A DNA stretch of 64,000 nt from Aquirhabdus parva (GTDB taxonomy: Bacteria; Pseudomonadota; Gammaproteobacteria; Pseudomonadales; Moraxellaceae): positions 1,656,207-1,720,206 of the forward strand of contig NZ_CP031222.1 of assembly GCF_003351745.1 (NCBI RefSeq), given 5' to 3'. The notes beneath the pieces were generated by a model. The model was not told the origin of the DNA and ran no database searches. It saw nothing but the letters and a program-made list of their open reading frames with translations. Shown here one piece after another: positions 18,887 to 39,800 of the stretch (its first letter is position 1; the number at the start of each line of letters is the position of its first letter). Made by a program: the position numbers and the translations under genes.

Positions 18887-18913
18887 GATTAAGCGAGATT
18901 AAAAAAACATGAT

Positions 18914-20725
18914 TTAGTGACCCTTGGTCTTTGCTTTGGTCGCGACAATCCACGCTTTGGTTCGGGTTTCCAATACATCCAAGGGTAATGCGCCACCATC
19001 CAAAATCACGTCATGGAACGCACGGATATCAAATGCATCTCCTAACTCTTTTTTGGCAAGAGCTCGTAGTTCAAGGATTTTTAACTGTCCCATCTTATAG
19101 GCTAATGCCTGACCCGGCCATGTAATATAACGATCAGTTTCCGCCTGCAGATCAGGTTCATCCTCACTGGAATGGGCATGGAAAAAATCGACCATTTGCT
19201 GGCGTGTCCAATGCTTGTAATGCACACCAGTATCCAGCACTAAACGATCTGCCCTTAGCAGCTCACTTGAAAGACGTCCATAGTCTGATAAAGGATCTTT
19301 ATAAAAACCAATATCTTTCCCCAGTTGTTCAGAATAGAGAGCCCAGCCTTCAATGTAAGCCGTATAACCTGCTTGCTGACGGAACGGTGGTAATGCGGGT
19401 AAGGTTTGTGCAATGGATATCTGCATATGATGACCAGGAATTGCTTCATGATAAGCAGTCGATTCAAACGTTGTTGAAGAGCGATTCGCAAAATCTCCAG
19501 TATTCACAAAAACCTGACCGGGTCTTGAACCATCGGGAGTGCCCTGTTGGTACTCTGCACCAGCAGCTTCTTTTTCACGGTATTCTTGGACAGGGACAAC
19601 TTCGACTTTAGTTTTTGGCAATAAACCAAATAACTTAGGTAACTCCGGTTGCATTCCCGCAATAAAGCCGCGATAGGCTTCAAGAATTTCTTCACGGGAC
19701 TTTGGATGGACTTTCGGATCTGTTTTTAAAGCTGCGCGGAAGCTAGCCAAATCCTTATAGCCTTGAGCTTTAGCAATTTCCGTCATGGCTGTTTCAATGC
19801 GTTTTACTTCAGCAAGACCAAGCTCATGGATATGCTCAGGGCTTTCTTTGGTTGTCGTCATTTGCTCGACTTGATAACGATAGATCGCATCTCCATTCGG
19901 AAGCTGCCACACACCAGGTTGACTACGACCATGCGGTGCGTAATCTTTTGCGATGAATTTACCCAGTTTGCTATACGCAGGACGAACATCATGATCAATA
20001 GCATCAATAATCGCCGCGCTTAAACGCTTACGATCCGCTTCTGAAATACTCTCTGGAAAGTGTTTTAAAGGATCGGCAAACGCACTGTCTTTACCAGCGG
20101 GCTTAGCAATACTGTCAATCTGCACAACTACTTTTTCAAGCAAGTATTTTGGTGGCATCATGCCATCCTGCAAGCCCTGCTTAGCCACTCCCATAGATTG
20201 ATCAAGCAATTTTGGAATCGCTTTTAAGCGTTTGATGTAATCTTCATATTCCTTAGTCGTTGTAAACGGGATTGAGCTGACAAATCCCGGAAGCTGTAAA
20301 TGGATGCCACTCATTTGATCAAAGGGCATTTCATACAATTTCAAATCATATCCACGCAAGCTATCTTTCAGTTGTCTGACCATTAGCTCTTGGTTAAGTT
20401 TATCCTCTGCTGAGAAACCACTGGTATCGATGGATTCAAAGCGTTTTAGAAAGCTTTCTGTAACTTTATGCTCGCTTTTGATATGTGCCAAAGACATATC
20501 CGACCACTTGTCGTTATAGCGTAAGTCTCCAAGAGTCGTTGCAAACTCTGGCGTATTTTCTAAATTGTACTGCCATTGCTCTGAGAGTAAATCGTTCAAG
20601 GCTTTTACACGTGATGTCACATCGGTCTGCTGAGTCGCAGTATTTGTCTCTGTTGCTTGGGCGATATTAATCATGCCCATGCTTAAACCTATGCTAAGAC
20701 TTAAGCTCAAAATTCTACTTTTCAT
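18914..20725 (-). CDS. DUF885-family exported putative metallopeptidase
   Basis: This 603-residue protein has an N-terminal signal peptide (cleavage near IAQATE) and a full-length DUF885 domain. The family's zinc-site-like motif HEAIPGHHMQ is at about 425-434, preceded by STAY. A conserved IEGWALYSEQLG follows, whose Glu is the likely third ligand. The family is predicted to contain periplasmic carboxypeptidase-like metalloenzymes. Biochemical evidence is thin, and the substrate cannot be read here. It is transcribed alone, ending at a strong bidirectional terminator. Confidence 0.85.
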   Translation of the reverse strand: MKSRILSLSLSIGLSMGMINIAQATETNTATQQTDVTSRVKALNDLLSEQWQYNLENTPEFATTLGDLRYNDKWSDMSLAHIKSEHKVTESFLKRFESIDTSGFSAEDKLNQELMVRQLKDSLRGYDLKLYEMPFDQMSGIHLQLPGFVSSIPFTTTKEYEDYIKRLKAIPKLLDQSMGVAKQGLQDGMMPPKYLLEKVVVQIDSIAKPAGKDSAFADPLKHFPESISEADRKRLSAAIIDAIDHDVRPAYSKLGKFIAKDYAPHGRSQPGVWQLPNGDAIYRYQVEQMTTTKESPEHIHELGLAEVKRIETAMTEIAKAQGYKDLASFRAALKTDPKVHPKSREEILEAYRGFIAGMQPELPKLFGLLPKTKVEVVPVQEYREKEAAGAEYQQGTPDGSRPGQVFVNTGDFANRSSTTFESTAYHEAIPGHHMQISIAQTLPALPPFRQQAGYTAYIEGWALYSEQLGKDIGFYKDPLSDYGRLSSELLRADRLVLDTGVHYKHWTRQQMVDFFHAHSSEDEPDLQAETDRYITWPGQALAYKMGQLKILELRALAKKELGDAFDIRAFHDVILDGGALPLDVLETRTKAWIVATKAKTKGH

Positions 20726-20845
20726 AAACTTGCCTTCGATGCCTGATTAATTTTTCCAAACAGTCCGATATTACAATTATTGTGCCAAGTTAAGCATCTA
20801 AATTGTGTATTTTCAGTATCTTTAGCGCAGAAAAAGCTGATTTAT

Positions 20846-22297
20846 TTATGCAGCAGGTATCCGTGATTTCGCCCAAGGTTGCGCTAGTTCTAACTCGTAC
20901 GCCAATTCTATGAGTGTGCGTTCATCACCATATTTACCACAGAAATGCACACCAATAGGTAGACCAACTTGAGACACGCCCATGGGCAAGGAGATAGCTG
21001 GGGTTCCTGTGATGTTTTGAATCGGTGTGAATGCCACATAATCGAGCAATCGTTCAAGTAATTTGTCAAAAGGCACATCTGGACCGAGATAGCCTATTTT
21101 TGGCGTCGTATGTGCAAGTACAGGGGTCATGATGACGTCGAATTGATCAAAAGACTTTTCATAATCTCGAGCACTTTGCTTCAGACGTGATATCGCCTTA
21201 GGAGTATGAAAAAAGTTCTTTTTGAAATGTTGCATTAAACCAAAAGTCAAAGGTTCAAGCTTTTGACTGTCAAAATCTTTATTAAAAGCTACGCGCCCTA
21301 ACTTCGATACTAAAAATGACAACATGGCCCAATACTGTAGAAAATCGTCGGTAAACGTCGATGCCACAGGCATGGAAATCTCAGTGACATGATGCCCTAA
21401 GCCCTCTAGAAGCTTTGCTGTACTACTTAACGTATGACGAGTCTCAGCATCAGTTTTTGAGCGAATTGAATCGAATAAAATTCCAATGCGTAGGCGCTTA
21501 GAATTGGGTCGCTCAATTAGACCTAGAGCCGGTAGTTTCTTATTTTGATAATACTGTTCCGCACTGGCATAGAAATGTGCGGTATCGCGTACAGAGCGCG
21601 TCACTACCCCTTCACTGATAATATTAATCGGAAAAATAGCGGCTTGAGGTGGGGACATCAGTCGTCCGCGTGAGGGTTTTAGACCCACCAGACCACAACA
21701 CGCTGCAGGAATACGAATTGAGCCGCCACCATCATTGGCATGGGCAATCGGCACTACACCTGAAGCCACAAGCGCTGCCGAACCGCCTGACGATGCGCCT
21801 GAGGAATAGTCCAAATTCCAAGGATTGCGCGTTGCTGGTTGACCCACAAATTCAGTTGAGGCATTTAAACCAAATTCAGGCAAAGTACTTTTACCCAGAA
21901 TATTAAAACCTTGATCGATGAATAATTGCGTTAACGGCGAGTGTTGAGAGGCTATTTTTGGCGTAAATGCGTGTGAACCTTGAGTTGTTTTCATCCCAAG
22001 TACGTCAGTATTGTCCTTGACAAAAAAGGGGATACCAGCAAAGATGGAATACAGATTCGTTGAATTCTGGCATATTAAATTTTGTTGTGATTTCGCTTGA
22101 ATAATTGCAAGATCAAAAGCTTCTTCTTGAATGGCATGAATATAGGGTTCCGCAGCTTTCGCACGTTCAATCGCAGCACGTGTCAACTCAAGTGGGCTTA
22201 TCTCGCCTTTAAGAAGTAGTTCGGATAAAGCAACGGCATCATGGTCTCCCATAACATCTGATTTCTGATCTTGTTTTGCACTAACAATATTCTTCAT
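20846..22297 (-). CDS. Amidase signature family hydrolase
   Basis: This is a 483-residue amidase-signature enzyme that hydrolyses an amide bond by a Ser-cisSer-Lys triad. Lys at about 91 is in FFVKDNTD, the cis-Ser near 168 is in [13 protein letters not shown], and the nucleophile Ser near 192 is in [24 protein letters not shown]. Spacing between the three matches the family. Sequence style resembles stand-alone amidases of the 6-aminohexanoate-cyclic-dimer hydrolase (NylA) group rather than GatA, but the substrate is open. There is no signal peptide. An internal ATG (MGDHDAV) 15 codons in is an alternative start. Confidence 0.87.
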
Positions 22298-22388
22298 ATC
22301 AAGACTGTCCTTATCTTTGTAAATTTTTTACTGTGTGAATCATTTAGAAGCATCAACACTATATTAGACAATCAAGATTTTCAACAAT

Positions 22389-22423
22389 AAAAAAAGCCCC
22401 TACTACTAAAGTAAGGGCTTTTT
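22389..22423. terminator. Terminator after acnB
   Basis: Arms AAAAAGCCC and GGGCTTTTT, extended by TACT/AGTA across one mismatch, surround a 4-base loop. Read on the minus strand it ends in a T-run, 22 bp after the acnB stop, before the amidase gene. Confidence 0.88.
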
Positions 22424-22444
22424 CAATTCAACTCAATGGAACCA

Positions 22445-25069
22445 TTAAGTCAACTGAGCAACATTGATCTTACCAGTTTCGATTTTGTCTGCCTGAGTGG
22501 TGTATTCAGACATTTTGTCGAAGTTCAGGTATTGGTAGATGTCCGCTGACATGCTGTTGATGGTATTGGCATACGTCATATACTCTTCAACTGTTGGCAG
22601 CTTGCCCATGACAGCTGCAACTGAAGCCAATTCAGCAGAAGCCAGATACACATTGGCACCTTGACCCAAACGGTTCGGGAAGTTACGGGTAGAAGTTGAT
22701 ACACAGGTGGTGTTCGGTGCTACACGAGCTTGGTTACCCATACACAGTGAACAACCTGGCATTTCAGTACGCGCACCAGCACGACCATAAATGTTGTAGT
22801 AACCTTCTTCCATCAGTTGATGTTCATCCATACGTGTAGGCGGAGCAAGCCATAGACGTGTTGCGAGTGAACCACCCTCAACTTTATCCAACAGCTTACC
22901 AGCAGCACGGAAGTGACCGATGTTGGTCATACATGAACCAATGAACACTTCATCAATCTTGGTGCCAGCAACTTGTGACAATGGTTTCGCATCATCTGGG
23001 TCGTTCGGGCAGCACAGGATCGGTTCTTTGATTTCGTTCAGGTCTATTTCATAAACTGCAGCGTATTCCGCATCGGCATCAGCACGCAGTAAGCTTGGGT
23101 TAGCCAACCATTTTTCCATCGCTTCAACACGACGTGCCATAGTACGAGCATCGCCGTAACCTTGAGAAATCATCCACTTCAACATGGTGATGTTGGAGTT
23201 TAGGTATTCAGCAACGGATGCTTCAGACAATGTAATAGAACAACCAGCCGCTGAACGTTCTGCAGACGCATCCGACAATTCAAAAGCTTGTTCTACGGTC
23301 AGATCTTCCAGACCTTCAATCTCAAGTACACGACCGTTGAATACGTTCTTTTTGCCTTTCTTCTCGATGGTCAATTCACCGCGTTGAATCGCTGCGTAAG
23401 GAATCGCATGTACGAGGTCACGTAAAGTGATACCAGGTTGCATTTTGCCTTTGAAACGAACCAATACTGATTCAGGCATATCGAGTGGCATAACACCTGT
23501 CGCAGCAGCAAACGCGACCAGACCAGAACCCGCTGGGAAAGAAATACCGATTGGGAAACGGGTATGTGAGTCACCACCAGTACCAACAGTATCTGGCAAC
23601 AGCATACGGTTCAACCAGCTATGGATGATACCGTCGCCTGGGCGCAGTGATACACCACCACGGTTCATGATGAAGTCAGGCAGGGTGTGATGAGTCGTTA
23701 CGTCTACTGGTTTTGGATATGCAGCGGTATGACAGAACGATTGCATGACGAGGTCAGCTGAGAAGCCCAAACATGCCAAGTCTTTCAACTCATCACGGGT
23801 CATTGGACCAGTGGTGTCTTGTGAACCGACAGTGGTCATTTTTGGTTCGCAGTAAGTACCTGGACGGATACCGGTACCTTCTGGCAAGCCACATGCACGG
23901 CCAACCATTTTCTGTGCTTGGGTGTAACCTTTACCAGTGTCGGCTGGTTGTACTGGAGTGCGGAACAAGGTTGAAACTGGCAGGCCAAGCGCTTCACGTG
24001 CTTTACCAGTCAAACCGCGACCGATGATCAAATTGATACGACCACCTGCACGAACTTCATCCAGCAATACTTGTGATTTCAGTTCAAAAGTCGACAGTAC
24101 TTCATCAGTACCGTTTTTGGTGATTTTGCCTTCGTATGGGAAAATGTCGATAACATCACCCATGTTCAAGTTAGCAACATCTGCTTCAAATGGCAGTGCG
24201 CCAGCATCTTCCATAGTGTTGAAGAAAATCGGAGCAATTTTAGAGCCGATACACACACCGCCATCGCGTTTGTTTGGGATGTGCGGCAAATCATCGCCAG
24301 TAAACCAAAGGACAGAGTTGGTTGCTGATTTACGGCTTGAGCCCGTACCAACCACGTCACCCACATAAGCAACTGTATGACCTTTCGCTTTTAATGCTTC
24401 GATTTGTTTGATTGGACCAATTTCACCTGGTTTCTCAGGAGTAATACCATCACGCGCGTTTTTCAGCATTGCATTGGCGTGAAGTGGGATATCTGGACGT
24501 GACCATGCGTCTTGAGCAGGTGACAAGTCGTCAGTGTTGGTTTCGCCGGTAACTTTGAACACGGTTACAGTAATTTTTTGTGCAACTTCTGGACGGCTGG
24601 TGAACCACTCTGCGTTTGCCCATGATTCAAGTACGGCTTTAGCGTGTGCATTGCCCGCTTGTGCTTTTTCTTGCACATCATGAAATGCATCAAATACTAA
24701 TAAGGTTTTTTTCAATGCTTCAGCAGCACCAGCAGCAAGTTCTGGGTTATCCAGTGCAGAAACCAATGGCTCGACGTTGTAGCCACCCAGCATGGTGCCT
24801 AACAGGTATACAGCGCGCTCTTTGGTCACGAGTGGTGATGTTGCCTCACCTTTGGTGATTGCGGCTAAGAATGCAGCTTTCACATAAGCAGCTTGGTCTA
24901 CGCCTGGTGGAATACGGTTTTCCAGTAAATCAACCAAAAAAGCTTCTTCGCCTGCTGGAGGATTTTTTAGGAGTTCAACAAGGCTTGCAACTTGAGTTTC
25001 ATCAAGTGCTTTTGGTGGGACACCAAGTAGGGCACGTTCTGCAACGTGTTGGCGATAGGCTTCTAGCAT
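22445..25069 (-). CDS. acnB: Aconitate hydratase B
   Basis: AcnB interconverts citrate and isocitrate in the TCA cycle using a 4Fe-4S cluster. The 874-residue protein has the AcnB order, with the HEAT-like and swivel domains at the N terminus. The cluster cysteines are in GSCMTNIGH (about 711) and PGCSLCMGN (about 772 and 775), almost the same positions as in E. coli AcnB. Substrate-site signatures [11 protein letters not shown] and [13 protein letters not shown] are present. The start has AAAGGA six bases upstream. It is a single-gene unit with its own terminator and a 339-bp upstream region. Confidence 0.97.
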
Positions 25070-25408
25070 GGTTTTGTCCTTTAGTAATATTAAGGGAAAA
25101 ATTTGATAGGCAGCGATCCTTACAGAAAACTACAGCGTAAAGAGACTTTATTCAGCCCTGCTCTTCGCTCAACAATTAAAGCGGTTATTGCCTGAATGAT
25201 CTCATCGAATCATCCCATGCAAATCGAGACGCTGCCTAGGTGTGGGAATGGTACTTGAATTTCCACTAAATGTTAATCAGATAAAGGCATAACGCCAGTG
25301 TAATGGCGCAATGATGAATATTTTTTTTGGAAATGGTGGCCAATTGAGCATTTATTATATTTTGTGTTGCAAATTTCTTTAATGCCAATACAGAGTTGAA
25401 AGCGCCAC
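25070..25408 (-). promoter_or_regulatory. acnB upstream region
   Basis: This 339-bp gap lies between acnB and the phosphopantetheinyl transferase gene, both on the minus strand. I see no gene. A small inverted repeat CGCCA/TGGCG occurs around 25290-25310, and the part near 25320-25380 is very A/T-rich. The acnB promoter must be in the left half, but no convincing -35/-10 pair stands out. Confidence 0.4.
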
Positions 25409-26158
25409 TTAATCTTCAATATTAGTCCTTTCTAATGTACCGAAACACACGATTTGTTCACCTAATGACTTTAGTCCAATCTTTTCTACGTTTAACCAAA
25501 AACGCTGCCCAGCAGACAAGTCTCCCCAATCTACAGTTAACATCAAACATGCTAGTTCTAGGGCTTCATCAACCGATAAAACCTCAACAGCTTCAAACGG
25601 CATAAACCGATTTACTTTGAAAAACAAAAGTTTGAAAAGTGTTTCTTTTAATGAGTAAATCATGGTGAGCCATTTTTCTCGCTCAATTGCCATTCTCTCT
25701 CCCAATCGCAGTTCATTTTCTGAAGCTATTAATTTAACGATGTCGTTTGCATGGTCGATCGAAAAAATGGTTTCGCAATCTATAGCAACCGAAGCGTATT
25801 GATTTTTTTGAGCAATGATCGCAATAGCTAAACCATTTTTTTCAAGCATGTTATGTGTAATTGATCCTATAAACTCGACAGGCCAAATAGGTAGACCTTG
25901 AGCGGTGCGTCCCATAACAGATTTTAATTGTTCCTCAGGACACAAAAATCTCTGTAAGGCGTGTATGGCGCTTAAGCGACCAGCTAGAAAGCTTGCTTTG
26001 CGCTGAGGAGAGGCCGTGCTGAGTTCTTGAGCCAAATTTCTGGCTAATTCACGAATAGACTCAGGGAAAAGATGCACAATTTCTGCATATTCATCGCTAC
26101 GAAATACATGGCTTTCACAATGAATCCCTTCGGGTAACTTTAGTTTGACGATAGACAC
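25409..26158 (-). CDS. Sfp/EntD-type 4'-phosphopantetheinyl transferase
   Basis: The enzyme moves the phosphopantetheine arm from CoA to the conserved Ser of a carrier protein. The magnesium-binding Asp-x-Glu is in AIDCET (about 126-128). The family block W..x(n)..SLKETLFKLLFF is at about 160-175. An upstream LAGRLSAIHAL resembles the EntD-type R-x-A-x-x-A-L motif. The 249 residues and a 4-sheet N-terminal half fit the group. The start is GTG 26158 with only a weak GAG upstream. It diverges from the synthetase gene across 140 bp, so its likely client is the carrier domain of that synthetase. Confidence 0.9.
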   Translation of the reverse strand: MSIVKLKLPEGIHCESHVFRSDEYAEIVHLFPESIRELARNLAQELSTASPQRKASFLAGRLSAIHALQRFLCPEEQLKSVMGRTAQGLPIWPVEFIGSITHNMLEKNGLAIAIIAQKNQYASVAIDCETIFSIDHANDIVKLIASENELRLGERMAIEREKWLTMIYSLKETLFKLLFFKVNRFMPFEAVEVLSVDEALELACLMLTVDWGDLSAGQRFWLNVEKIGLKSLGEQIVCFGTLERTNIED

Positions 26159-26298
26159 TATTGATTACTCAAATTTACTTGCACGCCATCGTAGGATAGC
26201 GCTAAATACTTGTCATAGCGCTCTTTAGTTGTCGGAGCGACACTTTTAATCGACAATACTTTCTTTATTAAATTTATTCTATTGTAATTGGATATTTT
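26159..26298. promoter_or_regulatory. Divergent promoter region of the synthetase and its activating enzyme
   Basis: The 8-mer ATAGCGCT occurs twice, at 26196-26203 and 26215-26222, 19 bp apart, and each contains the palindrome AGCGCT. Just to the right, TTGTCG (26229-26234) and GACAAT (26252-26257) form a plausible sigma70 promoter with a 17-bp spacer for the synthetase. They also overlap an inverted repeat TTGTCG/CGACAA. The arrangement looks like two operator half-sites on one helix face directly upstream of a -35 box. Confidence 0.45.
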
Positions 26299-29200
26299 GT
26301 GAACTCTGCATCTCAAGAAAATCAAAACAACACTGATCACTCAGACATACGAGCTATTGTTCGTGGCGAAAACCGTCCAGATTTACTCAAGCATGAAGTT
26401 CTTGCTGATTTGTTCGAGGAGACCGTCTCTCGAGTACCAGAAAAAATTGCGCTCATTTTCAATGATGAAAATTTAGGGCAGCGGTCTGTGACTTATGCAG
26501 AACTGAATCATCAAGCGGATCTGGTGGCTCATCATTTAATCCAAAACGGTGTTGTTTCAGGCCAGATCGTGGGTCTTTGGCTGCCGCGCGGTATTGAGTT
26601 ATTAGTGGCCCAACTTGGTATAGCCAAAGCAGGCGCAGCATGGCTTCCGTTTGATACAGAAACCCCTGTAGATCGTATTATGGTCTGCCTAGAAGATGCC
26701 AGTGCTGCGGGTTTAATCAGTGATGCAAATTGGCATTCTCGATTAGCACCTATTGAGCAACCTGTTTGGACAATAGAAGCCTTACTTGCCCCAGTTAGCG
26801 GTGTTTTAAGTCATCGGCAAAATTTTTTACCGAGTCATCCTGCTTATGTCATTTATACCTCGGGTTCTACAGGAAAGCCTAAAGGGATTGTGATTAACCA
26901 AGGTAGTATTTGTCATTTCTTACGTAGTGAAAATGCGGTTTTGGGCGTGCAAGAAAGTGATAAGGTTTATCAGGGCTTTTCAACAGCATTTGACATGTCT
27001 TTTGAAGAAATCTGGATTTCTTATTTGGTCGGTGCAACCTTATGGATTGCCCCGAAATCATTAACAACAGATCCCGATGCCTTACCTCTTGCATTGATCG
27101 AGAACCAGATTACGGTATTACATGCTGTCCCTACGCTACTGGCACTTTTCAGCATTGATGTCCCGAATTTGCGCATTATCAATCTTGGCGGGGAAATGTG
27201 CCCAGATTCGTTGGTTGAGCGATGGGCACTAGCCCATCATCAAATTTTTAATACTTATGGCCCGACAGAAGCGACTGTTTCCGCCAGTTTAGCGAATCTA
27301 CATCGTGGACATCCGGTGACCATAGGTAAACCATTACCAAATTATGGTCTGCTGGTGGTCGATGACCAATTTAATTTGCTCAATATCGGTGAAACCGGTG
27401 AGCTCTGTATTTTCGGTATGGGCGTTGCTGATGGTTATTTAGGTCGTCCCGATCTCACCGCTGAGAAGTTTCTAAATAATCCATGGGCCCAGACACCAGA
27501 AGAATCTAAATTATATAAAACGGGTGACCTCGCGATTTTGGATGAAACTGGTCAGATTGCACTGCTGGGCCGTGCTGATGATCAAATCAAAATTCGTGGT
27601 TTCCGCGTAGAACTTGGCGAGATAGAAGCAATACTCACCGAACAAACAGGGATAGGTACCGCTGCAGTGCTACTGCGAAATGAAGATGGCATGGATCAGT
27701 TGATCGCATTTATCGTCCCCGATGGATCACAAGAACACGACTTACAAGCCAAGACGGAAAGTCTGAGTAGCACTCACTTACGGGCAAAGTTACGTGAAAA
27801 ACTACCGCCTTATATGGTTCCCAATCGTTTTGAGGTCATCGAACAAGTTCCGCGGTTACTCTCTGGTAAAATTGATCGCAAAGCGCTACGTGTATTGCCA
27901 CTGACGACAATCGTCGATCGTGCTGCTTCCGACGAACCAACCAATCCAGCCGAAGTTGCACTTTTCGGCGTACTGAATAAGTTATTTCCGAATGCTCCAA
28001 TTCAACTGAGTGCCGATTTTTTTGATGATCTAGGTGGCCATTCATTACTGGCTGCACGTTTAGTTTCAGGCTTACGTGCTTTTCCAGAATACAGCCACAT
28101 TACGATTCATGATCTTTATCAGAAACGTCGTGTTGGGGCAATTGCAGAGAAAATGGCTGAGCAATCCGCCCAACAAGATAATATTGCGGCGTGGCAACCG
28201 GAAGAATTACAAGATCATACAGCACGCCGTTTCTTCTGCGGGCTGGCTCAAATCATTTTGTTGCCTTTCCTCATCAGTCTGCATATTCTGCAGTGGCTTG
28301 CACCCTTCTTCACCTACCACTTTTTGACAGGTAGCCCTGACGATAATATTTGGTATGCAATCGGTGTTTCACTTGCCGTATTTTTATTGACACAAATTAC
28401 TGGTTTTGCAGTTTCGATCTTCGGCAAACGCTTATTGCTTCTAAATATCAAAGCGGGAAGGTACCCACTTTGGGGCGTTGTTTATTTACGTTGGTGGCTT
28501 GCTGATCGTCTTTCTGACGTTGCACCAGTGCATTTGCTATCGGGCTCTTCTTTATATCACTGGTATTTACGAGGTATGGGGGCAAAGGTAGGGCACGATG
28601 TTTCCATTGGCTCTATTCATGTACGCATGCCTTCCCTTGTTAATATTGGTGATGGTGTTAGCATTGGTTCATCGGTGAATCTGGAGAATGCTCGCGTTGA
28701 ACGCGGCTGGTTGGTTCTAGGCAGTATTAATCTCGAAAAGGAAAGTTATATTGGATCTTATGCAATCTTAGAAAGTGATACTACGATCAAAACTTATGGG
28801 CGTTTGAATGGTTTATCCGCACTCTCCCATGGACAGACAATCAATGAATATGAAGTTTGGGATGGTGCACCGGCTAAGAAAGTCGAAATTTTTGATCCCG
28901 CTAGCTACCCGCCACGTCCAGCTGTATCAAATACACGATTGATTGGAGAGTTTGTATTTTTCTTAGCCAGCGTCATGGTTGTGGCCTGTCTATTCTTTAT
29001 CCCGATTTTCCCAACGTTTATTATTGTTGACTGGTTTGATGCACATTGGTTAAGTCCACTTCTTGCTGCTGACAATATTACGTTAACTGCGGTGCATTAT
29101 TTCATCTTAGCAATCCCTGCTAGCGCCGTTATGATTATTGTGACTGCTTTATTGTCTGTGGCAATTCGATGGATTGCGTTACCACGTCTAAAACCGGGAA

Positions 29201-30369
29201 TCTCATCAGTTCATAGTGAAACGTATTATCGCAAATGGTTTGCAAACCAGATTCAGGAATCCAGCCTGCAAATCCTACGTGGGGTTTATGCCACCGTTTA
29301 TGCACCAACGTGGTATCGAATGCTGGGTGCTAAAGTAGGTCGTGATGCTGAGATTTCAACGGCTATGGGCGTTGTGCCAGACATGCTAACTCTTGGCGAT
29401 GAGAGCTTTATTGCCGATGCAGTGATGCTCGGTGATGAGGAAATCAGTGGAGGATGGATGATTCTAAAACCCACTGTTGTTGGCAACCGCAGTTTTGTCG
29501 GTAATGGCGCGTATGTCCCAGATGGTACGACAATTCCTGATGGGGTCTTGATTGGTGTGCAGTCTAAAGCGCCAGAGCATGCGATTAACGAAGGGGAAAC
29601 ATGGTTTGGATCACCGCCAATACGCCTCCCTGCTCGCGAGAAGATGACGGGTTTTACCGAAGGGTTAACATTTAAGCCGACCATATTGCGCCGTATTGCG
29701 CGGGGCTTCATCGAAGCAATGCGTATAGTGCTACCACTTGCGCTTACGATTGGTGTGGGTTACATGGTCGTACTCTCAGTCATTGAAACGACAGAAAATC
29801 AAGGGTGGACTGCTGGGTTTGCTATGCTGATTTTATGTGGACTGCTTTATGGGGTTGGCTGTTTTATTTTTGTTGGCTTGCTCAAATGGATTTTGATCGG
29901 GCGCTACAAACCTAAGTCTGTGCCGATGTGGACACTCTTTGTTTGGCTCAGTGAAGCGGTAACCAGTCTCCATGAGTCTGTCTCAGTCCCAAACTTCCTA
30001 AACTATTTACGCGGTACACCACTGTTGCCTTGGATGTTCCGCTTGATGGGTACAAAAATTGGTAAACAGGTCTATCTAGATACCACAGATATCACTGAAT
30101 ATGATTGCGTACAAATTGGTGATCATGTAGAAATGAATAGTTTCTGTGGACCACAGACGCATCTATTTGAAGACCGAATCATGAAGATTGGGCACGTCAT
30201 CATCGGTGATCGGGTTTCGGTGAGTGCGCGTAGTATTATTCTATATCATGCAGAAGTGGGCCATGATGCCTACCTCGGGCCTTTGACCTTGGTAATGAAG
30301 GGTGAGCAAATTCCGCCATCAAGCGCATGGACTGGGTCGCCTGCCGTACCATGGAGAAAGGCAGACTGA
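26299..30369 (+). CDS. Pls/PosA-type single-module peptide synthetase (cationic homopoly-amino-acid synthetase-like)
   Basis: The 1356-residue protein follows the layout of Streptomyces poly-epsilon-lysine synthetase. An adenylation domain carries [11 protein letters not shown] (186-196), [44 protein letters not shown] and [10 protein letters not shown] carrier domain carries GGHSLL with attachment Ser582. Then come three pairs of membrane segments (about 640-710, 885-965 and 1135-1195), each followed by a soluble domain rich in hexapeptide repeats (IGD, VGRDA, IGK types). There is no condensation or thioesterase domain. Aligned by hand to PheA, the pocket reads D232 M233 E236 H275 N295 G297 T319 V327 S328 K524; the acidic E236 suits a basic amino acid. 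The start is GTG with GGA upstream. The product is inferred, not shown. Confidence 0.88.
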   Translation: [1356 protein letters not shown]

Positions 30370-30389
30370 CCATACTTTTGTATATCTGA

Positions 30390-30415
30390 AGCCGTATGAG
30401 CAATCTCATACGGCT
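30390..30415. terminator. Hairpin between synthetase and GT4-like gene
   Basis: Perfect 11-bp arms AGCCGTATGAG (30390-30400) and CTCATACGGCT (30405-30415) surround the loop CAAT. It lies between two convergent genes and is probably a shared terminator, although neither strand has a proper T-run. Confidence 0.65.
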
Positions 30416-30435
30416 CTTCAAGATTTAAGGAAATG

Positions 30436-31857
30436 CTATTCTTTTTCTTCAACTGCTATTATTTCTAATAAATTCACGTCCAGACTTGAATCTGCGTAGA
30501 CCCAGACGCGTACCTCCAACTCAGAAACTGCGTCATCGAGTAAAAGTGGCATATCCAGAATTAAGTTACTGTCTTCAATTTTAATCAATGGGTAACTGTC
30601 AATAATAACGACCCTATCTTTGTTAATTGTCACTTGTGCGAAAGCATGAAATTCACCGCCTAATGACCTAATTTCACCATAAAGTTTAACGCGATATTGC
30701 CCAGCCTCAAGGGGGGTATATGGGCCATGAACAAGGAATCCTTGTACGCCAGTTGTACGAATGGCTGTACCGGACTTTTTGCCAACCTGAGTCGCCAAGC
30801 GAATATCTGCACCATCAAAGCGAGAAATCGAATTTGAGTTATCGTATGTCTCATAGAGTGTCATCGTTGCCTCTGAAACAGTCGCTGCAAGCAGCGCATC
30901 ATCATGTGCCGAGTCGATAAGCTCAGGTTTCCACGCTTGAATGACATCGTTATATAATCCTTCCCACTGCTGAATGACCGAATCCAGTCCGACTTTTTTT
31001 CGCAATGTCGATGATACTTCCGTAATAGTCTTAGCATCATATTGTTCAAGCGCATGCAGCATCGATTCCGTACGAATGGTGTGCTCAACAACTTTACGAC
31101 ATCCCATAAAACTGTCTGGCCAATCTTGAAGCAGCTCAGATGACAGTATCCCACCAAAGCCATTATGGTCGGTTAAAATGACCATTGCTCCTGTGGCAGA
31201 TGCTTCAATGGCACTGCGTGAAAAAGCAAATACGACATCTGCTTCCAGAAACCTTTCGGGCAAATTGGTGGCTATTTTTCCGACTCCACTGCCTACAGCA
31301 TCAACTTCAATTCCCCGAAGTTTGCATGCTTTTTCAATCTCAGGCACAAAGTCTGCGATATGTTTTGTCACGATCAATGCTTTAGAGGGTTTTTTTGCGA
31401 TCTTCTGTCGTAAGGGAAATTTTGTGAGATCGACACCATTAGCAATGATTTGAATTTTTGATTCGGGCACACCATCTACGATCATTCGGTCACGGCATAC
31501 GGCATCAATAGCAACGTACCCTCCTATCCGATTTAAGAGCGGTGGTGGCGAATCGTATGGAGAAACGGAGTCATGGCAAACAAAAACTGCTGGAGTTTTT
31601 GGAAAACGGATTAAAGCGGCGATCAAAGCGACATTATGATGACCATGAATAATATCGGGAACAAAACCGATTTTCCCGATTTGGTTTGTGACGGGGATGC
31701 CCAGCGTTCTGGCAATTCTTGCGGTTGCACCGAGCATAGGACTAAAGATTGCAACACGATGTCCCCTAGATTTTAGGGCATATGCAAGTTCGACCGTCGC
31801 AACTTCCGTACCGGAGCGCCCAGATAAAATGATGTTTGTAATTAAAATCGAAAGCAT
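30436..31857 (-). CDS. GT4-like glycosyltransferase with C-terminal beta-rich domain, copy 1
   Basis: The N-terminal 300 residues look like a GT-B (GT4-like) glycosyltransferase. They start ILSGRSGTEVATVELAYAL, a family-like loop for the acceptor domain, then HGHHNVALIAAL, FVCHDS and a donor-domain segment around VFAFSRSAIEASATGAMVI, which resembles the E-x7-E region in weakened form. From about residue 330 is a 140-residue domain of beta strands (GPYTPLEAGQYRVKLYGEI and a strand-rich end) that looks like a jelly-roll or carbohydrate-binding fold. I do not recognise it by name. A close paralogue follows at 32098. The donor and acceptor are unknown, and no other glycan genes are near. Confidence 0.65.
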   Translation of the reverse strand: MLSILITNIILSGRSGTEVATVELAYALKSRGHRVAIFSPMLGATARIARTLGIPVTNQIGKIGFVPDIIHGHHNVALIAALIRFPKTPAVFVCHDSVSPYDSPPPLLNRIGGYVAIDAVCRDRMIVDGVPESKIQIIANGVDLTKFPLRQKIAKKPSKALIVTKHIADFVPEIEKACKLRGIEVDAVGSGVGKIATNLPERFLEADVVFAFSRSAIEASATGAMVILTDHNGFGGILSSELLQDWPDSFMGCRKVVEHTIRTESMLHALEQYDAKTITEVSSTLRKKVGLDSVIQQWEGLYNDVIQAWKPELIDSAHDDALLAATVSEATMTLYETYDNSNSISRFDGADIRLATQVGKKSGTAIRTTGVQGFLVHGPYTPLEAGQYRVKLYGEIRSLGGEFHAFAQVTINKDRVVIIDSYPLIKIEDSNLILDMPLLLDDAVSELEVRVWVYADSSLDVNLLEIIAVEEKE

Positions 31858-31997
31858 AGGTCTTATTCCCCCAAGTTTTATTATATAAAGCTGAGTTTTA
31901 GATGATGATTATTAGAAATAAAACAAAACTTTATAGGTTTTATAACTCTAGACTATTGGAAAAGCAACTGAATACACTGAAAATTTGTAGCTATTAC

Positions 31998-32034
31998 TTT
32001 TAATTTTCCATGAAGGTGTCATGGAAAATTAAAA
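31998..32034. terminator. Perfect 16-bp inverted repeat between the two GT4-like genes
   Basis: Arms TTTTAATTTTCCATGA (31998-32013) and TCATGGAAAATTAAAA (32019-32034) are exactly complementary around the loop AGGTG. It lies 64 bp after the end of copy 2 and acts as a terminator in either direction. The two paralogues are therefore probably separate transcription units. Confidence 0.8.
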
Positions 32035-32097
32035 TCGAATAATTATTAAAAGGTGGATATTATGATGTAGAAAATAAACTACGGAGAATTTTTGTAG

Positions 32098-33555
32098 TTA
32101 GGCAATATATTGATTTAAATTGAATTCGCTTTCCTGTAACTCATGATCAACAGGAGAAATTTCTATTGAGTACACTTCTAGGCGAGAATCAGCTGAAACA
32201 TTGATTCTAATTTCGATATCAGTCGCAGATTCATTCAAATAAAGTGGGATATCTACAATTAGATCACTACTCGGTACATGACTAAGCGGAACTTTTATTA
32301 ATTTTTTCATCCCTCTTTCTATCGTAACATCAACATAGTCCTGTTCATTTAAAAAGGTTATATTGCCGAAAATTTTAACTCGGTAATAACCATTTTTTAG
32401 AGGGATGTACGGACCAAATAAAAGAAAACCTGCTACCCCAGTTGTTGTAAGGGCTGATTTGGTTTTTTTTCCAACTAAGGTTTTCAAGCGAGGATTGGCT
32501 GCATCAAAACGATAAACTGCGTAACGCTCCATATCATCATCAGAATACTTCTCAGCTACGTTGAATGTCATGTGTGCAACATAAGATGCAAGCAAGGCAT
32601 CGTCATGTGCAGGATTGACAAGACGTTTAGGTGAAGAAATTACCTCCTCATATAATGTTTCCCATTTTAGTGCTAATGCATTAAGGTCAACTTTTTCTCG
32701 CACTATATATGATATTTTTTTGAGCTCTTCGACGTTATAACTATCTAACGCTGTAAGGATATCTTCAGAACTAACATGTTTATTTAAAAAGTGTCGGCGA
32801 CCTAAATTACAATTTGGCCATTCTTCAATCATGTTCGATGAGAGAATGCCCCCATAACCGCTTCCATCAGTCATGATAACCATTGCGCCTGTTGCAGCCG
32901 CCTCAATTGCACTTCTTGAGTAGCCGAAGACAACATCAGCTTTTTGAAATCGAATCGCTAAATCATCAACAACTTTTCCGACACCAACACCGACAACACT
33001 AAGCTCAATCCCTCTAAGATCACATGCTTTTTTTATTTCAGCAACATAATCGGTATTCAGTTTGGTTACAACTAATGCTGATTTGGGGGTGATCGCATAA
33101 TCTATTCGAGGCTTAAATAAGTCTAGATTTACTGCATTAGCTATAATTTGAATTTTTGTGTCAGGAACACCGTCTAATACCATTCGATCGCGGCATGCAT
33201 GGTCGATAGCTATATAAGCACCAATTCGGCTTACTAACGGGGGGGCAGCATCATAAGGGGTTGATGAATCATGGCACACAAATATGGCCGGGGTTTTTGG
33301 AAAGCGGATCAATGCAACTGTTAATGCTGTATTATGATGTCCATGAATAATATCTGGTACGAAGCCGATCGACTCAATTCGATTAGTAACAGGTATCCCT
33401 AGAACTCTTGCCCTATGTGCAGTAGGTCCTAGTGATGGACTATATATCGCTACACGATGCCCTCGACCCTTTAAGGCATATGCTAGCTCTACTGTAGCAA
33501 TCTCCGTCCCGGACCTCTCTGCTAAAATGAGATTTGTCATCAAAATAGATGCCAT
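32098..33555 (-). CDS. GT4-like glycosyltransferase with C-terminal beta-rich domain, copy 2
   Basis: This is a full-length paralogue of the gene at 30436-31857, with the same two-domain plan. The opening ILAERSGTEIATVELAYAL, HGHHNTALTVALIRFPKTP, FVCHDSSTPYDAAPPL and VFGYSRSAIEAAATGAMVI match almost block for block. The C-terminal domain again contains GPYIPLKNGYYRVKIFGNI and ends in beta strands. The 485-residue product has a slightly longer tail than copy 1 (473). Its surroundings and codons look more A/T-rich than the housekeeping genes, which could mean a later arrival or relaxed selection. The function remains open: glycosyltransferase is inferred from the fold-like motifs. Confidence 0.65.
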   Translation of the reverse strand: MASILMTNLILAERSGTEIATVELAYALKGRGHRVAIYSPSLGPTAHRARVLGIPVTNRIESIGFVPDIIHGHHNTALTVALIRFPKTPAIFVCHDSSTPYDAAPPLVSRIGAYIAIDHACRDRMVLDGVPDTKIQIIANAVNLDLFKPRIDYAITPKSALVVTKLNTDYVAEIKKACDLRGIELSVVGVGVGKVVDDLAIRFQKADVVFGYSRSAIEAAATGAMVIMTDGSGYGGILSSNMIEEWPNCNLGRRHFLNKHVSSEDILTALDSYNVEELKKISYIVREKVDLNALALKWETLYEEVISSPKRLVNPAHDDALLASYVAHMTFNVAEKYSDDDMERYAVYRFDAANPRLKTLVGKKTKSALTTTGVAGFLLFGPYIPLKNGYYRVKIFGNITFLNEQDYVDVTIERGMKKLIKVPLSHVPSSDLIVDIPLYLNESATDIEIRINVSADSRLEVYSIEISPVDHELQESEFNLNQYIA

Positions 33556-34041
33556 GAAATCCTTCCCTGTTTTATATTACTCAATCCACTAAGCCAAGCA
33601 TGCTAAGTTTTAATCTACTTAGGTACAACTCAGACTGTTTATTATAGATTCGAATAAAAGTGTGCACGTTTTTTTGTTTGCGTACTGGCTCACATAAATT
33701 CGGGTATTTACTATCTAATTAGTGACCTAAACACACAATTTGTTCATAGCGAAACAATTATTGCTTATCAACGACCCATCAATTTATTAAGTTCATATGT
33801 ATTCATAAAAGCGTTGCTACAACCAATCTGAATAAATCAGTTGCATTTTGATACGACTCTGTATTGAGTGAGAATGATGATGTATGGTACTGTACTGTAC
33901 AGTACGATAATGAGTGTATTAAGGGAGCACATTCAAAATATACTCATTCATGCTTTATCAATACACGAAATTCAGCAAAATACTGCAAGTTTTGAGATGA
34001 CTAGGCTGGACATTTTTTGTCAATAACCCATGGAATTCATA
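33556..34041. promoter_or_regulatory. Divergent region between GT4-like copy 2 and the TetR gene
   Basis: This is a 486-bp A/T-rich gap without a recognisable gene. It must contain promoters for both neighbours. The notable element is the palindrome at 33892-33905, described separately. Confidence 0.5.
33892..33905. promoter_or_regulatory. Candidate TetR-type operator
   Basis: GTACTGTACAGTAC is a perfect 14-bp palindrome, preceded by another TACTGTAC copy in the same phase. It sits immediately before GATAAT (33906-33911), a possible -10 element, so bound repressor would cover the -35/-10 spacer. It lies about 135 bp upstream of the TetR-family gene, which suggests autoregulation. Confidence 0.5.
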
Positions 34042-34725
34042 ATGCCCGATACAATCGAAAACACGCAAATCCACTCTATCGCAGATACGATGCCTAATTT
34101 ACCGCAGACAAAACGTGGGATTGATCGACGCGAGGCATTACTGGCAGCGGCAGATGAGTTGTTTTTGCAGCATGGTTTTGACGGTGTCAGTTTAGACAGT
34201 TTAGTTGCGCATGTTGGTGGCTCTAAAGCATCGATTTATCAGTATTTTGGTTGCAAAAAAGGTTTATTAGTTGCTCTGGTTCAACGGCGGCATGAACGTT
34301 TCTTCGGTGAAAATGCCTTACCTACAGAACTTGGTACATCAAGTGTGCGCGAAGTTCTTATAGATACCGCGCTGAAGCTATACAATGCTGTTATTCAGCC
34401 AGATAAAATCGCATTCATGCGTTTAATTGTTCGTGAATCACAGCGCGATCCAGAAATTGGTCGTATTGCTTATGAACTTGGACCTGCACGCGGACAGTCC
34501 ACAATGGCTAAGATATTAATGGATGCTGATGCACGTGGAGATATTTATTGTCCACACCCTTTTGAATCGACTGTTATGTTTGGCGGTTTCTTGCAGCATA
34601 TTAAGTGGCGAATACTGATCGGGCTCCCACCATTAGAAGAAAATGTAAGTGTTGATGATTTTTTTGAATTTTTTATTGATCGTTTTTTGGCAGCACATCA
34701 CCCTAGCCATAGACCAGTTCATTAA
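34042..34725 (+). CDS. TetR/AcrR-family transcriptional regulator
   Basis: The N-terminal helix-turn-helix is typical: RREALLAAADELFLQHGFDGVSLDSLVAHVGGSKASIYQYFGCKKGLL spans its core (written here as one domain of about residues 30-75), with SKASIYQYF as the recognition helix. The C-terminal half is an all-helical ligand-binding and dimerisation domain of the AefR-like type (MRLIVRESQRDPEI). ATG 34042 is preferred over ATG 34030 because GGAA lies 8 bases upstream. A 20-residue disordered N-terminal arm precedes the DNA-binding domain. The ligand and targets are unknown. The palindrome upstream suggests it controls itself and perhaps the divergent GT4-like gene. Confidence 0.9.
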   Translation: MPDTIENTQIHSIADTMPNLPQTKRGIDRREALLAAADELFLQHGFDGVSLDSLVAHVGGSKASIYQYFGCKKGLLVALVQRRHERFFGENALPTELGTSSVREVLIDTALKLYNAVIQPDKIAFMRLIVRESQRDPEIGRIAYELGPARGQSTMAKILMDADARGDIYCPHPFESTVMFGGFLQHIKWRILIGLPPLEENVSVDDFFEFFIDRFLAAHHPSHRPVH

Positions 34726-35065
34726 CAATTCACGTTATTTATCTCATTTTGCAGCTAAGAGGTAATTGACACCCGTTCAAAAAGCCTCACTTTGTGTCCC
34801 CATATTTAAAAATATCTGTCATGGCTTCTATGACTAAATCAATAAGATGAACTTGCGCGTAGGTCGTAAGCGCAAGTATTTCTCCCTGCCCTTCATATTT
34901 ATCAAGTATAATCTCTGGTTTTTCTAATCTTTGGCGTATGGAAGTGCGGTTATTGCTTACATATATGCTTAAGTGAAGATTGGATTAGGCCATCTCACGT
35001 TTTTAGAAAATGAACGAATAATAGAATTGCGAGAAGTTTTTTTTGCAACAATTCGCGGAGTTAGC
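34726..35065. promoter_or_regulatory. Region between tetR-family gene and argF, with hairpin
   Basis: Perfect 8-bp arms ACTTGCGC (34851-34858) and GCGCAAGT (34870-34877) enclose an 11-base loop. The hairpin could end the regulator transcript, although it lacks a T-run. The rest is A/T-rich and contains no gene. The argF promoter should lie between 34880 and 35040; no pair stands out clearly. Confidence 0.4.
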
Positions 35066-35995
35066 ATGTTGCGGTTAGCCAGTCAGCCTCCACGGCACTT
35101 TTTAAGTTTACTCGATACTACACCCGAGGAACTGCATAATATTTTAGATCGGGCAATCGAGCTTAAAGCATTGCATCGTCAGGGTTTATTGCATCAGCCC
35201 TTTCATGGTCGTGTACTTGGGATGATTTTTGAAAAATCCAGTACACGCACACGGATATCTTTTGAAGCTGGCATGAGTCAGCTTGGAGGAAGTGCGATTT
35301 TTTTGTCACCACGTGATACTCAACTGGGCCGTGGTGAACCGATCGAAGACTCTGCACGGGTTATTTCGCGGATGGTTGATATCGTGATGATTCGTACTTT
35401 TGCGCATGAAACCGTTGAACGTTTTGCCGCCTATTCACGTGTGCCTGTGATCAATGGACTCACTGATGATCACCACCCGTGTCAGCTTTTGGCCGACTTG
35501 CAAACCTATAAAGAAATGCGTGGTGACTTTGCTGGGAAGACCTTCGCCTGGATCGGTGATGGTAACAACATGTGTAACTCTTATATCCATGCGGCACATC
35601 AATTAGGATTCAAGTTAAAGATTGCTTCGCCATACGGGTTTGAACCGGATCCTGCACTGTTATTTGAATACGCACATTGTGCCGAGCTAGTCTCGTCGAG
35701 TGAAGCTGCAGCTGAAGGCGCACATCTCGTTGCAACCGACGTCTGGACCAGTATGGGGCAAGAAGCTGAACAAAATATTCGTAAGCGTCGATTTGCAACT
35801 TATCAAATCACTCCTCGATTACTCGATTTAGCGGCAGATGATGTCCTGTTTATGCATTGTTTACCAGCGCATCGCGGTGAAGAGATTTCCGAAGATATGC
35901 TTGATGATCCGCGTGCGGTCGTATGGGATGAGGCTGAAAATCGTTTACACGCCCAAAAAGCGCTTATGGAGTTTTTATTAAGACCGGCTGTTTAA
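35066..35995 (+). CDS. argF: Ornithine carbamoyltransferase
   Basis: ArgF makes citrulline from ornithine and carbamoyl phosphate in arginine synthesis. The signatures are complete: [18 protein letters not shown] (carbamoyl phosphate site), [36 protein letters not shown], and the ornithine-loop and catalytic [12 protein letters not shown]. The start ATG 35066 gives 309 residues, the normal length. It has GGAG 5 bases upstream, whereas the longer reading from 34973 adds residues unlike any ArgF. It is a single gene, followed after 67 bp by a DedA gene. Confidence 0.96.
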
Positions 35996-36062
35996 TGCAC
36001 TCAATACTGTCATTAAAGACAGGTTATTGTGTGTAAATAAGAACAACTGGAAAAACTAAATT

Positions 36063-36701
36063 ATGATAATTCCTTCTTTTATCAATGAAATCATCAATCA
36101 TGGTGCTTTAGGCGCGACGATTGGGATTATCTTTTTTTGTTATATTCAGGAGGATGCGGGTCTCATTTTGTCAGCAACACTTGCTTCAACAGGTGTTGTT
36201 CCGCCTTTCTATGCGTGGGCTGGTGCATTCTTTGGAATCTGCACCGGTGATCTGACAATATATTTGATTGCCAGAATACTGCGCAAACCCATGGGAAATA
36301 TACAATTTAATAGTGATGCTGCAATTTCAAACAAAGAATTGTTTATGTGTCGCTTTGTCCCTGGTTTGCGCACTGTGGCATATGCTTGGTGTGGAATCAA
36401 TCGCATGCCAATTTGGCGTTTTGGCCAAGTCATTTTTTGGTCGGGTATCGTATGGACGGGTACCGTTTTCAGCTTAATTTACTGGGTAGGTGTACAACTA
36501 GGTGATCTTCCGATTTATTGGAAGCTTTTACCCGTTGCGTTGGTTATTGGTTTAATTTTATGGTGGCGACGTCATTGGCATCCAGCTTTCTTAAATAAAA
36601 AAATAGATGAAGATGTTCAAAAGACTATTCATGACAGTAGCGATATTATTTTACCGACTCGTGAACAAAATAATCTCGCAAAAAATGAGCCGAAAGAATA
36701 A
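36063..36701 (+). CDS. DedA-family (VTT domain) membrane protein
   Basis: This is a 212-residue inner-membrane protein with the DedA/SNARE-associated core: an acidic re-entrant segment (YIQEDAGLILSA), GICTGDLTIYLIAR and the conserved RFVPGLRTVAYAWCG. At least four hydrophobic segments are visible, and the hydrophilic tail is cytoplasmic. DedA proteins are linked to proton-motive-force-dependent lipid scrambling and undecaprenyl-phosphate or phosphatidylethanolamine flipping. Which lipid this one moves cannot be told. It follows argF by 67 bp. Confidence 0.88.
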   Translation: MIIPSFINEIINHGALGATIGIIFFCYIQEDAGLILSATLASTGVVPPFYAWAGAFFGICTGDLTIYLIARILRKPMGNIQFNSDAAISNKELFMCRFVPGLRTVAYAWCGINRMPIWRFGQVIFWSGIVWTGTVFSLIYWVGVQLGDLPIYWKLLPVALVIGLILWWRRHWHPAFLNKKIDEDVQKTIHDSSDIILPTREQNNLAKNEPKE

Positions 36702-36791
36702 GGGAAACAATTTTAAGAGTGCTAATTAAAGTACCAAACATTGAACATTTAGCCTTAGTAATAAAAAACGAGTTCCTTTCGATTATAGCTC

Positions 36792-36839
36792 AATCAAAAA
36801 TCTAGATTGAGTTGCCTTTCCCCAATCTAGATTTTGATT
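36792..36839. repeat. Long inverted repeat between dedA and tamB
   Basis: The left arm AATCAAAAATCTAGATTG (36792-36809) pairs with CAATCTAGATTTTGATT (36823-36839) along 17 pairs with one bulged A; the loop is 13 bases. It lies between convergent genes and is probably a bidirectional terminator. Each arm contains the palindrome TCTAGA, so cruciform or mobile-repeat origins are alternatives. Confidence 0.6.
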
Positions 36840-36874
36840 CATAATTTTTTTGTCTCGCAAATCAGATGTAACAT

Positions 36875-39800
36875 CTAGAAACGCCAGTTATAGAAGAAAT
36901 CGATTGCACGATCCAGAGAGGAACTCGCCTCCATATATAGCCGTTGCGTCATTTGATAGCGAAGTGTCAGCTTGTTGATCGGTGTAAATACGCCAACCCC
37001 ATAACGCAGATAGAGATCAGGTGAAATATAGCCAGTGACATTGACTGTAGTTCCATCGCCACTTCCCTCTGCATCAAAAGTCAGATTACTTAAACCAAAA
37101 GCACTACCCAGTTTATTGGTAAAACCACGAGAGCCACTTAGCCCCGCACTAATACCTGCTGCGGCTATGGCATTGTTTACATCTGAACGGAAACCCGCGG
37201 TGTTGTTAATCGTTGAGCTCGTCGAGTTGATATGTCCCGATAAAATCGCACTGTAGGTTTCTTGATCGGTTAACCCAGCATCATTAAATGTGGTGATCTT
37301 AGGATTACTTGCACGACCTGTGATTCGGAGCCCTACAGTATGGCTATCAATAATCTTAAATGCCTCGATATCCAATTGTGGCTGCAGCATAGGTCCACTG
37401 AAAATGACATTGCTCTTACTCAACGTCAGCGCTTGACCATAAGCTTCAACCCGTGCGTTACGCTGCAATGCAATTTGTCCTACGGCAGTCATACCACCTT
37501 GTCCGCGCTGGCGTATATGCAATTGACCAAGGAGTTTCGCATTAGAACCAAAGCCCCTAAAATAAACAGCATCGCCCAAAGCCGCATCGATATCCGCATT
37601 GATTGTCCATGCTTTTACATTTTGAAGTACGGTATCGACATTTTGATCCAAGCGCACGACACGGACGTCTGCAGATTTTGAGATTGCATTGCTTCCTGTG
37701 CTTGCGCCAGGAGTGATAGAGCCTCGAGGGACATCAATACGACCATTAATTGTTACTTGCTTGTCTATAGGTAAGACCTGAACATCTATTGAAGGACTAA
37801 CCCATACAGCGACCATCGGCGGTTGACGTATTTCTAATTCTTTTGCGACTAATTTTAAGTTAATTTCAGGCTTATCAACCCATGTTGCTAATCCAGTCAA
37901 AGTTCCCTTTCCGTCTCCACTCATAAATTGCCCATTGATACTGGCTTGAGTCCCGCGGATACTGGATGAAAAATTGATGTCATGCAGATTCAACGGTAGA
38001 TTTGTCGCAACAATGCGACCATTATTAAGCTTAAATTCACCATAGAATGCAGGATTTGTAAGTGGACCACTCATCCCGCCTGCAAGTGATGCAACACCTG
38101 AAAGATCGCGAATACCGGGTAAAAACGGTTTCAAGACTTGCAGTTGTACATCATCTAAAACCAACGCACCATTAATGGTTTTTGTTTCAGGTTTTGGATC
38201 AATCAGTGCATCAACATACCCTGTACCGATACTGGGAGTTTTAGCATCAAAACGGAGTTTTATACCATCACTTTCAGTTGCCAGTAGTAGACTTAAGCGT
38301 TGATATGGCATGGTACTTGGTGGGTCTTGTGGATCATCCGCAGCCAAACCAATAAAACCATTGTCTGTTGAGATTTGGGCGTTGATTTGCGGCGATGTGT
38401 TGGCTTGCCAACTGGCCGTTGCATGACCTTGTAATTTTCCAGTCCAGACCATGCCACTTGGCATCACGTCATTGAAACCGGCTAGATCTAATGCATCAAG
38501 TGCAATTGCGACATGACCAGCTTGCGCACTGGCAATCAAAGGTTCCGTAATGCATAATTTACCTGCACCAGACCAGCAATGTGCGGCTAATGTGACTGCT
38601 TGTGTTTGATGTAAATATTGTAGTGCCGCAGCTTGCTCTTGTTTTAAGGTGAGCTGCTTCGTACTTAAGGCGCCTTGGCGTATCTGACCAATCCAATCCA
38701 TTTGCTCGTTCAAGCCACCAGCTAATTGCACCGAAAATTGTGTTTTCGGTGTTTTAATTGCCATATCTAAAGCATGAGATTTTTGTGTGCCTGTAAGCTT
38801 GGCATTAACATTGTTTATAACTTGCTTCCCTCGACGCAAGTCATTCACGTTGAGTGTCAATTGACTCGGTTGGAGCCCTAGTTGAGGAATATCACCAATA
38901 AGAGTGGCATTTTTGATGGTCAGCTCAGGCATTTTTAATTGTTCTACCGACAAATTAATATGCGCATCAGGTGACTGGCTTTGGCCAGAGAGAGAAACTG
39001 TTCCATAGACTCGACCATTTAAATTTGGGCTAATCTGCCCTAAATTCCGGGCATCAATATTCATCAAGAAATTACCAACAGGAGCACCTGTACCACTCGC
39101 ACTGGCACCACCATTTGCAGTAACACGGTTACCAGCCCAATCAACCATAAAGTTGTTGGCAATTAAACGTTCTGGTAGCGGCGATACTGCTTTGGGATTG
39201 AAAATGGCACTCAAAGAGCCCTTTGCCAGTAAAGGTTGTTTTTTCAATGATCCTGCTAAATCTAATTGTGAAATTTGAACATTGCGTACCAAAGCATCCC
39301 ATTGTCCTGTTGTGTTAAAGGCACCGCTGAGTGCGCTTGGATAAGTTGGGACAAAGAAACCTAAATTAAAATTATTGAGTCGACCTGTCGCTTGCCATTG
39401 AAGACCAGCTTTGGTCATAATTTGACCTGTTGCACTGATCTGACCTGCTGCGCCGTTATGTTCAAAACGCTCGATTCGGGTGAGGTCTGGTGTACCTGAA
39501 ACCTGAATATTCAGATTCCCGGTGGGCGCTTCACTACCTTTTAAATCACCATCAAATTTTGCGGAGTATGATTTCAAACCGCTTGTATTCTTAGCGGTAT
39601 TCATCAGCAAAATTGCTTGTCCCTTTCCTGTAAGAGAAATATTTCGTGATGGAGTACTAGCTCCTTTTTGTACGGATTCTGATTGAAGGATTCCCGTTAG
39701 TTCAGGCTGTACAGAAATGGTTTGTTGTGCTTGCGTACTGATTCCCGAAGCTGTAATTGCACCCTGTAAGCGTTGTATTGGTGAAGAGACAATAGAAGTA

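Follow-up and report, generated by a model that had tools for sequence, protein, structure and literature searches.

The locus lies within a window of 64,000 nucleotides, the whole stretch of DNA that was analysed, and comprises two divergent genes. The first ORF (26299..30369, + strand) starts with GTG and encodes 1356 aa in the order A-T-TM/beta-helix; from its TIGR02353 match, its match to PDB 8g95 and its specificity code, it is predicted to be a PosA-type delta-poly-L-ornithine synthetase. The second ORF (25409..26158, − strand) also starts with GTG and encodes a 249-aa Sfp/EntD-type 4'-phosphopantetheinyl transferase (PPTase), which was assigned from Pfam domains and orthologues and is proposed as the dedicated activator of the synthetase. 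The 140 bases between them (26159..26298), which are presumed to hold the promoters, could be aligned across four genomes of the genus. Promoter-like sites in a scan of this region were no commoner than in shuffled sequences, so no promoter is claimed, and no Rfam match was found in window positions 18000-37000. Between posA and a tetR-argF pair lie two tandem, related glycosyltransferase-4-like genes (30436-31857 and 32098-33555, − strand). In L157, another genome of the same genus, this slot holds a different pair of mutually similar ORFs (9930-10511 and 10572-11180), and the glycosyltransferase-like genes were rejected as members of the system on that ground. The slot downstream of posA is variable within an otherwise shared gene order.

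To characterize the synthetase, we scanned it against Pfam and NCBIfam. The results showed a single adenylation (A) domain (residues 39-531; 26413..27891, + strand; Pfam AMP-binding, 235 bits; TIGR01733, 385 bits), with AMP-binding at residues 39-381 and AMP-binding_C at 441-524, followed by a single carrier (thiolation) domain at about residues 550-620 (27946..28158, + strand). The PP-binding match to the latter (residues 564-616) scored 21.0 bits, barely over the Pfam cut-off of 20.8, and the phosphopantetheine serine, Ser582 (codon 28042-28044), sits within a GGHS motif (579-582) conserved in 105/105 aligned rows. AMP-binding, AMP-binding_C, PP-binding and hexapeptide/beta-helix families were the only Pfam families detected, and the scan returned no C or TE family. 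The remainder of the protein, the C-terminal polymerisation domain (residues 650-1349; 28246..30345, + strand), was delimited by TIGR02353, AlphaFold and hydropathy. The NCBIfam model TIGR02353 (NRPS_term_dom, "Pls/PosA family") matched residues 650-1349 over profile positions 2-695 of 695, with 760.4 bits against a cut-off of 423.1 (E = 1.8e-228). Hydropathy analysis revealed six strong membrane segments past residue 640 (646-664, 684-702, 885-903, 936-954, 1143-1161 and 1177-1195), while one further weak match falls in the A domain and is not a membrane segment.

An AlphaFold model of residues 550-1356, built with 48 aligned sequences (pLDDT 86, pTM 0.87), showed the carrier domain together with three pairs of long helices and three left-handed beta-helix units, and its C-terminal part agrees with the PosA model described by Patel and Gulick. 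A Foldseek search returned no solved structure for the entire C-terminal part; its partial matches, which covered single units, were hexapeptide acyltransferases and gamma-carbonic-anhydrase-like proteins. An earlier, sequence-only reading of this DNA had proposed a Pls/PosA-class synthetase with one A domain, one carrier (Ser582), six membrane segments, three soluble hexapeptide-repeat domains, a Pls-like C-terminal fold and no C or TE domain. Pfam, the alignment and hydropathy agree on this layout, the three beta-helix units correspond to the three soluble domains, and the family score together with the predicted model bears out both class and fold. On sequence grounds, the synthetase is assigned to the Pls/PosA family, and to its ornithine branch rather than its lysine one. 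The family itself, its name, substrate code, wide distribution and predicted fold are already published (PMC10522769, PMC4668381).

We then examined the neighbouring PPTase. Two of its domains passed the Pfam cut-offs (4PPT_N, 48 bits; ACPS, 37.8 bits), and the catalytic motifs D127-x-E129 and K171-E172...K176 are retained. The best NCBIfam match, EntD, remained under its cut-off, and the protein also scored below the curated cut-offs of Npt and PptT. ORFs, domains and motifs thus confirm the divergent Sfp-type activator gene that had been noted 140 bp from the synthetase. The gene adjoins posA divergently in 4/4 genomes, so this pairing holds across the genus; its orthologues occupy the corresponding position in the other three and are 50-53% identical to it. 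Set against the 87% identity of PosA, this value raised the possibility of abnormally fast evolution, which was rejected since the housekeeping PPTases of the same genomes are likewise only 54-56% identical. The linked gene has not outpaced its housekeeping counterpart in divergence and therefore gives no sign of decay. The own genome, a single contig of 3.78 Mb, encodes three PPTases (a 223-aa housekeeping enzyme, one within a PKS-region ORF and the posA-linked gene), and its carrier domains are AcpP, those of a PKS region and PosA, the last being the sole NRPS-type carrier found. Separately, positions 405000-415000 of this contig (G000:C1; L090, L093, L094) hold a large two-carrier ORF, a PPTase-ended ORF, a small ACP-like ORF and a glycosyltransferase-like ORF, which suggests a PKS-type lipid or glycolipid cluster.

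To assess how widely synthetase and PPTase are coupled, we surveyed the neighbours of the 80 nearest named loci of the synthetase, including the own-genus locus L009. A short PPTase-superfamily gene lies directly downstream of the synthetase in 53 of them, and five of the six such genes tested passed the Pfam ACPS cut-off. L009 carries the divergent PPTase and A. rudis a different downstream one, bringing synthetase-adjacent PPTases of all forms to 55/80 loci (54/79 without L009). When the choice of loci rested on the family model and not on a sequence pattern, an adjacent PPTase was present in 9 of 20, six of these from one genus. By our estimate, the chance of a PPTase falling within about 1.5 kb, given three PPTases per 3.78 Mb, is far below 1% for any one locus. 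In most Acinetobacter, posA has no PPTase linked to it, and the linked PPTases found elsewhere belong to other subfamilies and orientations than that of the window, the arrangements being divergent upstream, overlapping downstream, or upstream in the same direction. On the FastTree phylogeny, which contains long branches, a single change accounted for each of the divergent, A. rudis and DFEALGTVTK-linked forms, while the short downstream form was dispersed over the tree through gains or losses. The PPTase families differ in both sequence and location, which makes repeated coupling likelier than a single inherited arrangement, although gain and loss are not separable here.

The beta-proteobacterial partner PPTases were missed by our first PPTase profile and were recovered by clustering neighbours. 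Met or Leu often replaces the second acidic residue of their D-x-E motif, while all retain W-x3-E-x3-K; this change may point to a group of PPTases that is specialised or modified. D-x-M or D-x-L is common in posA-linked PPTases of beta-proteobacteria and Pseudomonas (L055, L037, L073 and similar). The main text of the PosA paper (PMC10522769) does not contain the word phosphopantetheinyl, and we found no paper on a synthetase-linked PPTase in the open-access literature, which is not proof of novelty. The fresh point of this analysis is a modest one: a PPTase is repeatedly found beside Pls/PosA-type synthetases, the synthetase itself being of a known kind. We tentatively suggest, at a little short of even odds, that outside most Acinetobacter the proteobacterial synthetase and a dedicated PPTase often form a two-gene module, assembled repeatedly from different PPTase subfamilies, in which activation by the partner could switch polymer production.

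These data bear on whether the neighbouring PPTase is dedicated to PosA. The housekeeping PPTase could load PosA as well, and if it were the actual activator, the neighbour would serve another carrier or be redundant; the two additional PPTases of the own genome and the missing partner at most Acinetobacter posA loci are in keeping with this. We nevertheless consider it unlikely, as the pair is kept throughout the genus, the PPTase retains its catalytic motifs, the own genome yielded no further NRPS carrier, posA-linked PPTases recur in many relatives, and the linked gene has diverged at the pace of the housekeeping one. We infer that the neighbouring PPTase serves the PosA carrier.

The distribution of the synthetase was examined next. 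Full-length identity was 87% within the genus, where posA of one member (G026) is split across two contigs, and 61-66% to Acinetobacter and the nearest other Moraxellaceae. The nearest named relative, the Moraxellaceae MAG L009 (87% identity), seems to be identical with a contig of G037, a genome of the window's genus. In the FastTree phylogeny, the synthetase fell together with PosA-type members from Acinetobacter in a 15-row Moraxellaceae set (support 100). The Acinetobacter sequences formed a group separate from the window's genus, so the host belongs to a Moraxellaceae genus other than Acinetobacter. The TIGR02353 cut-off was passed by 21/249 genomes of the bacterial family and 2/245 order genomes (own genome included), and the Pls/PosA family was present in about 7% of the genomes sampled across the phylum. 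In L203-L210, which form a distinct branch of the family within this phylum, the code is DLEDIGSVVK or DLEDLGTVVK, and PMC10522769 lists comparable ones (D L E D I G T V T/V/I K) among unusual signatures. The patchy spread of the family would suit a silent or vestigial locus that makes no polymer, yet neither ORF is disrupted, and within the genus the synthetase is conserved more strongly than the housekeeping PPTase, which renders such a locus improbable.

To predict the substrate, we computed the ten specificity residues from the alignment. The results showed D232, M233, E236, H275, N295, G297, T319, V327, S328 and K524, a code (DMEHNGTVSK) identical at 10/10 positions to that published for PosA (PMC10522769). 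The best PDB matches of the A domain were the A. baumannii PosA structures (8g95, 590 bits), and the Streptomyces Pls A domain scored far lower. Crystallography and mutagenesis have shown that PosA holds ornithine through Asp217, Met218, Glu221, Thr304 and Ser313 (PMC10522769), and all five pocket residues are retained in the window synthetase. Met218 is the chain-length position, occupied by Ala in Lys enzymes and by Phe in Dap enzymes (PMC10522769); here it is Met233, and the Ala of a lysine pocket is absent. The kcat/KM of PosA is about 160-fold higher for Orn than for Lys, no lysine polymer is made, and the in vitro product consists of delta-linked ornithine oligomers of 7-12 units (PMC10522769). 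Among 105 aligned relatives, the code varied at single positions (T for S in 18, S for T in 2), so it tolerates some change and is by itself no proof of product.

The cationic substrate proposed in the sequence-only reading is thus well supported, and because the code is identical to that of PosA, ornithine is predicted over Lys, Dab and Arg. Epsilon-poly-lysine, poly-Dab or poly-Dap, though characterised products of other Pls/PosA members, are very improbable here given the full set of PosA specificity residues, the Met at the chain-length position and the preference of PosA itself for Orn over Lys. From orthology and pocket identity, the predicted product is poly-ornithine. The argF gene (ornithine carbamoyltransferase; 34973-35995, about 4.6 kb past posA) was considered as a marker of ornithine supply and rejected: of the loci fetched, only the window and L157 have it close to posA, and in L157 too it follows posA. 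Being kept with the posA locus only inside the genus, it adds nothing on substrate supply and probably reflects synteny only.

We also searched the C-terminal domain for a candidate polymerisation site. A Q1286-x-H1288-x-x-E1291 motif in the third beta-helix unit (30154..30171, + strand) was invariant in 33 diverse third units that are 29-91% identical to the window over the unit, as well as in a 21-member full-length set. K1296 and MKGE (1333-1336) were likewise invariant in the 33 units. A three-way alignment of the window's own units showed that the first and second lack a histidine at the H1288 place. The third-unit profile also matched galactoside and maltose O-acetyltransferases, enzymes that employ a histidine base. 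The motif is therefore a candidate for the polymerisation site, in which H1288 may act as base or catalytic residue.

The domain layout, intact key residues, PosA code, fold class and conserved pairing are all visible in the sequence, and we consider it highly probable that the locus encodes a PosA-type poly-ornithine synthetase with an adjacent activating PPTase and yields a short cationic ornithine oligomer. In the proposed mechanism, the PPTase would transfer the 4'-phosphopantetheine arm from CoA to Ser582, and the A domain would adenylate L-ornithine and load it onto this arm. The three beta-helix units, anchored in the membrane, would then repeatedly join the loaded carboxyl to the delta-amine of ornithine or of the growing chain, giving a short, isopeptide-linked cationic oligomer, possibly akin to the 7-12 units of the A. 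baumannii enzyme. Knocking out posA in that species left growth normal and slightly raised biofilm formation; fungi were inhibited by a synthetic ornithine 12-mer, which had minimal effect on two Gram-negative bacteria (PMC10522769). By analogy, an antifungal role would have better precedent than the biofilm or killing role that the sequence-only reading put forward as possible for a secreted product. With these results, poly-ornithine synthesis is predicted for a second Moraxellaceae genus and, on the strength of the specificity code, for many beta- and gamma-proteobacteria. For heterologous production, the linked PPTase is a partner gene that can be tested, and the invariant Q-x-H-x-x-E offers a first target for studying the polymerisation mechanism.

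Among known systems, PosA of A. baumannii (PMC10522769; PDB 8G95-8G98) is the closest, with the same domain order and all ten specificity residues; its Acinetobacter relatives share about 61-62% full-length identity with the window synthetase and the same predicted C-terminal fold. Unlike the A. baumannii system, the window's genus has an adjacent divergent PPTase throughout. Among PPTases, the window enzyme shares the 4PPT_N and ACPS domains and the D-x-E and K-E...K motifs with EntD/Sfp types, but it falls under the EntD, Npt and PptT cut-offs and its genomic partner is a PosA synthetase. The PDAP synthetase of Streptomyces albulus PD-1 (PMC4668381) is likewise a single-module A-PCP enzyme whose C-terminal part combines soluble units in tandem with membrane helices, but differs in its poly-diaminopropionate product and in Phe at the Met218 position (PMC10522769). 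Pls, the epsilon-poly-L-lysine synthetase of Streptomyces albulus (7WEW), has the same A and carrier domains, six membrane helices and three tandem units, but is distant in sequence (A domain, 241 bits versus 590 for PosA) and has a pocket of the Lys type, in which Ala takes the place of Met218 (PMC10522769).
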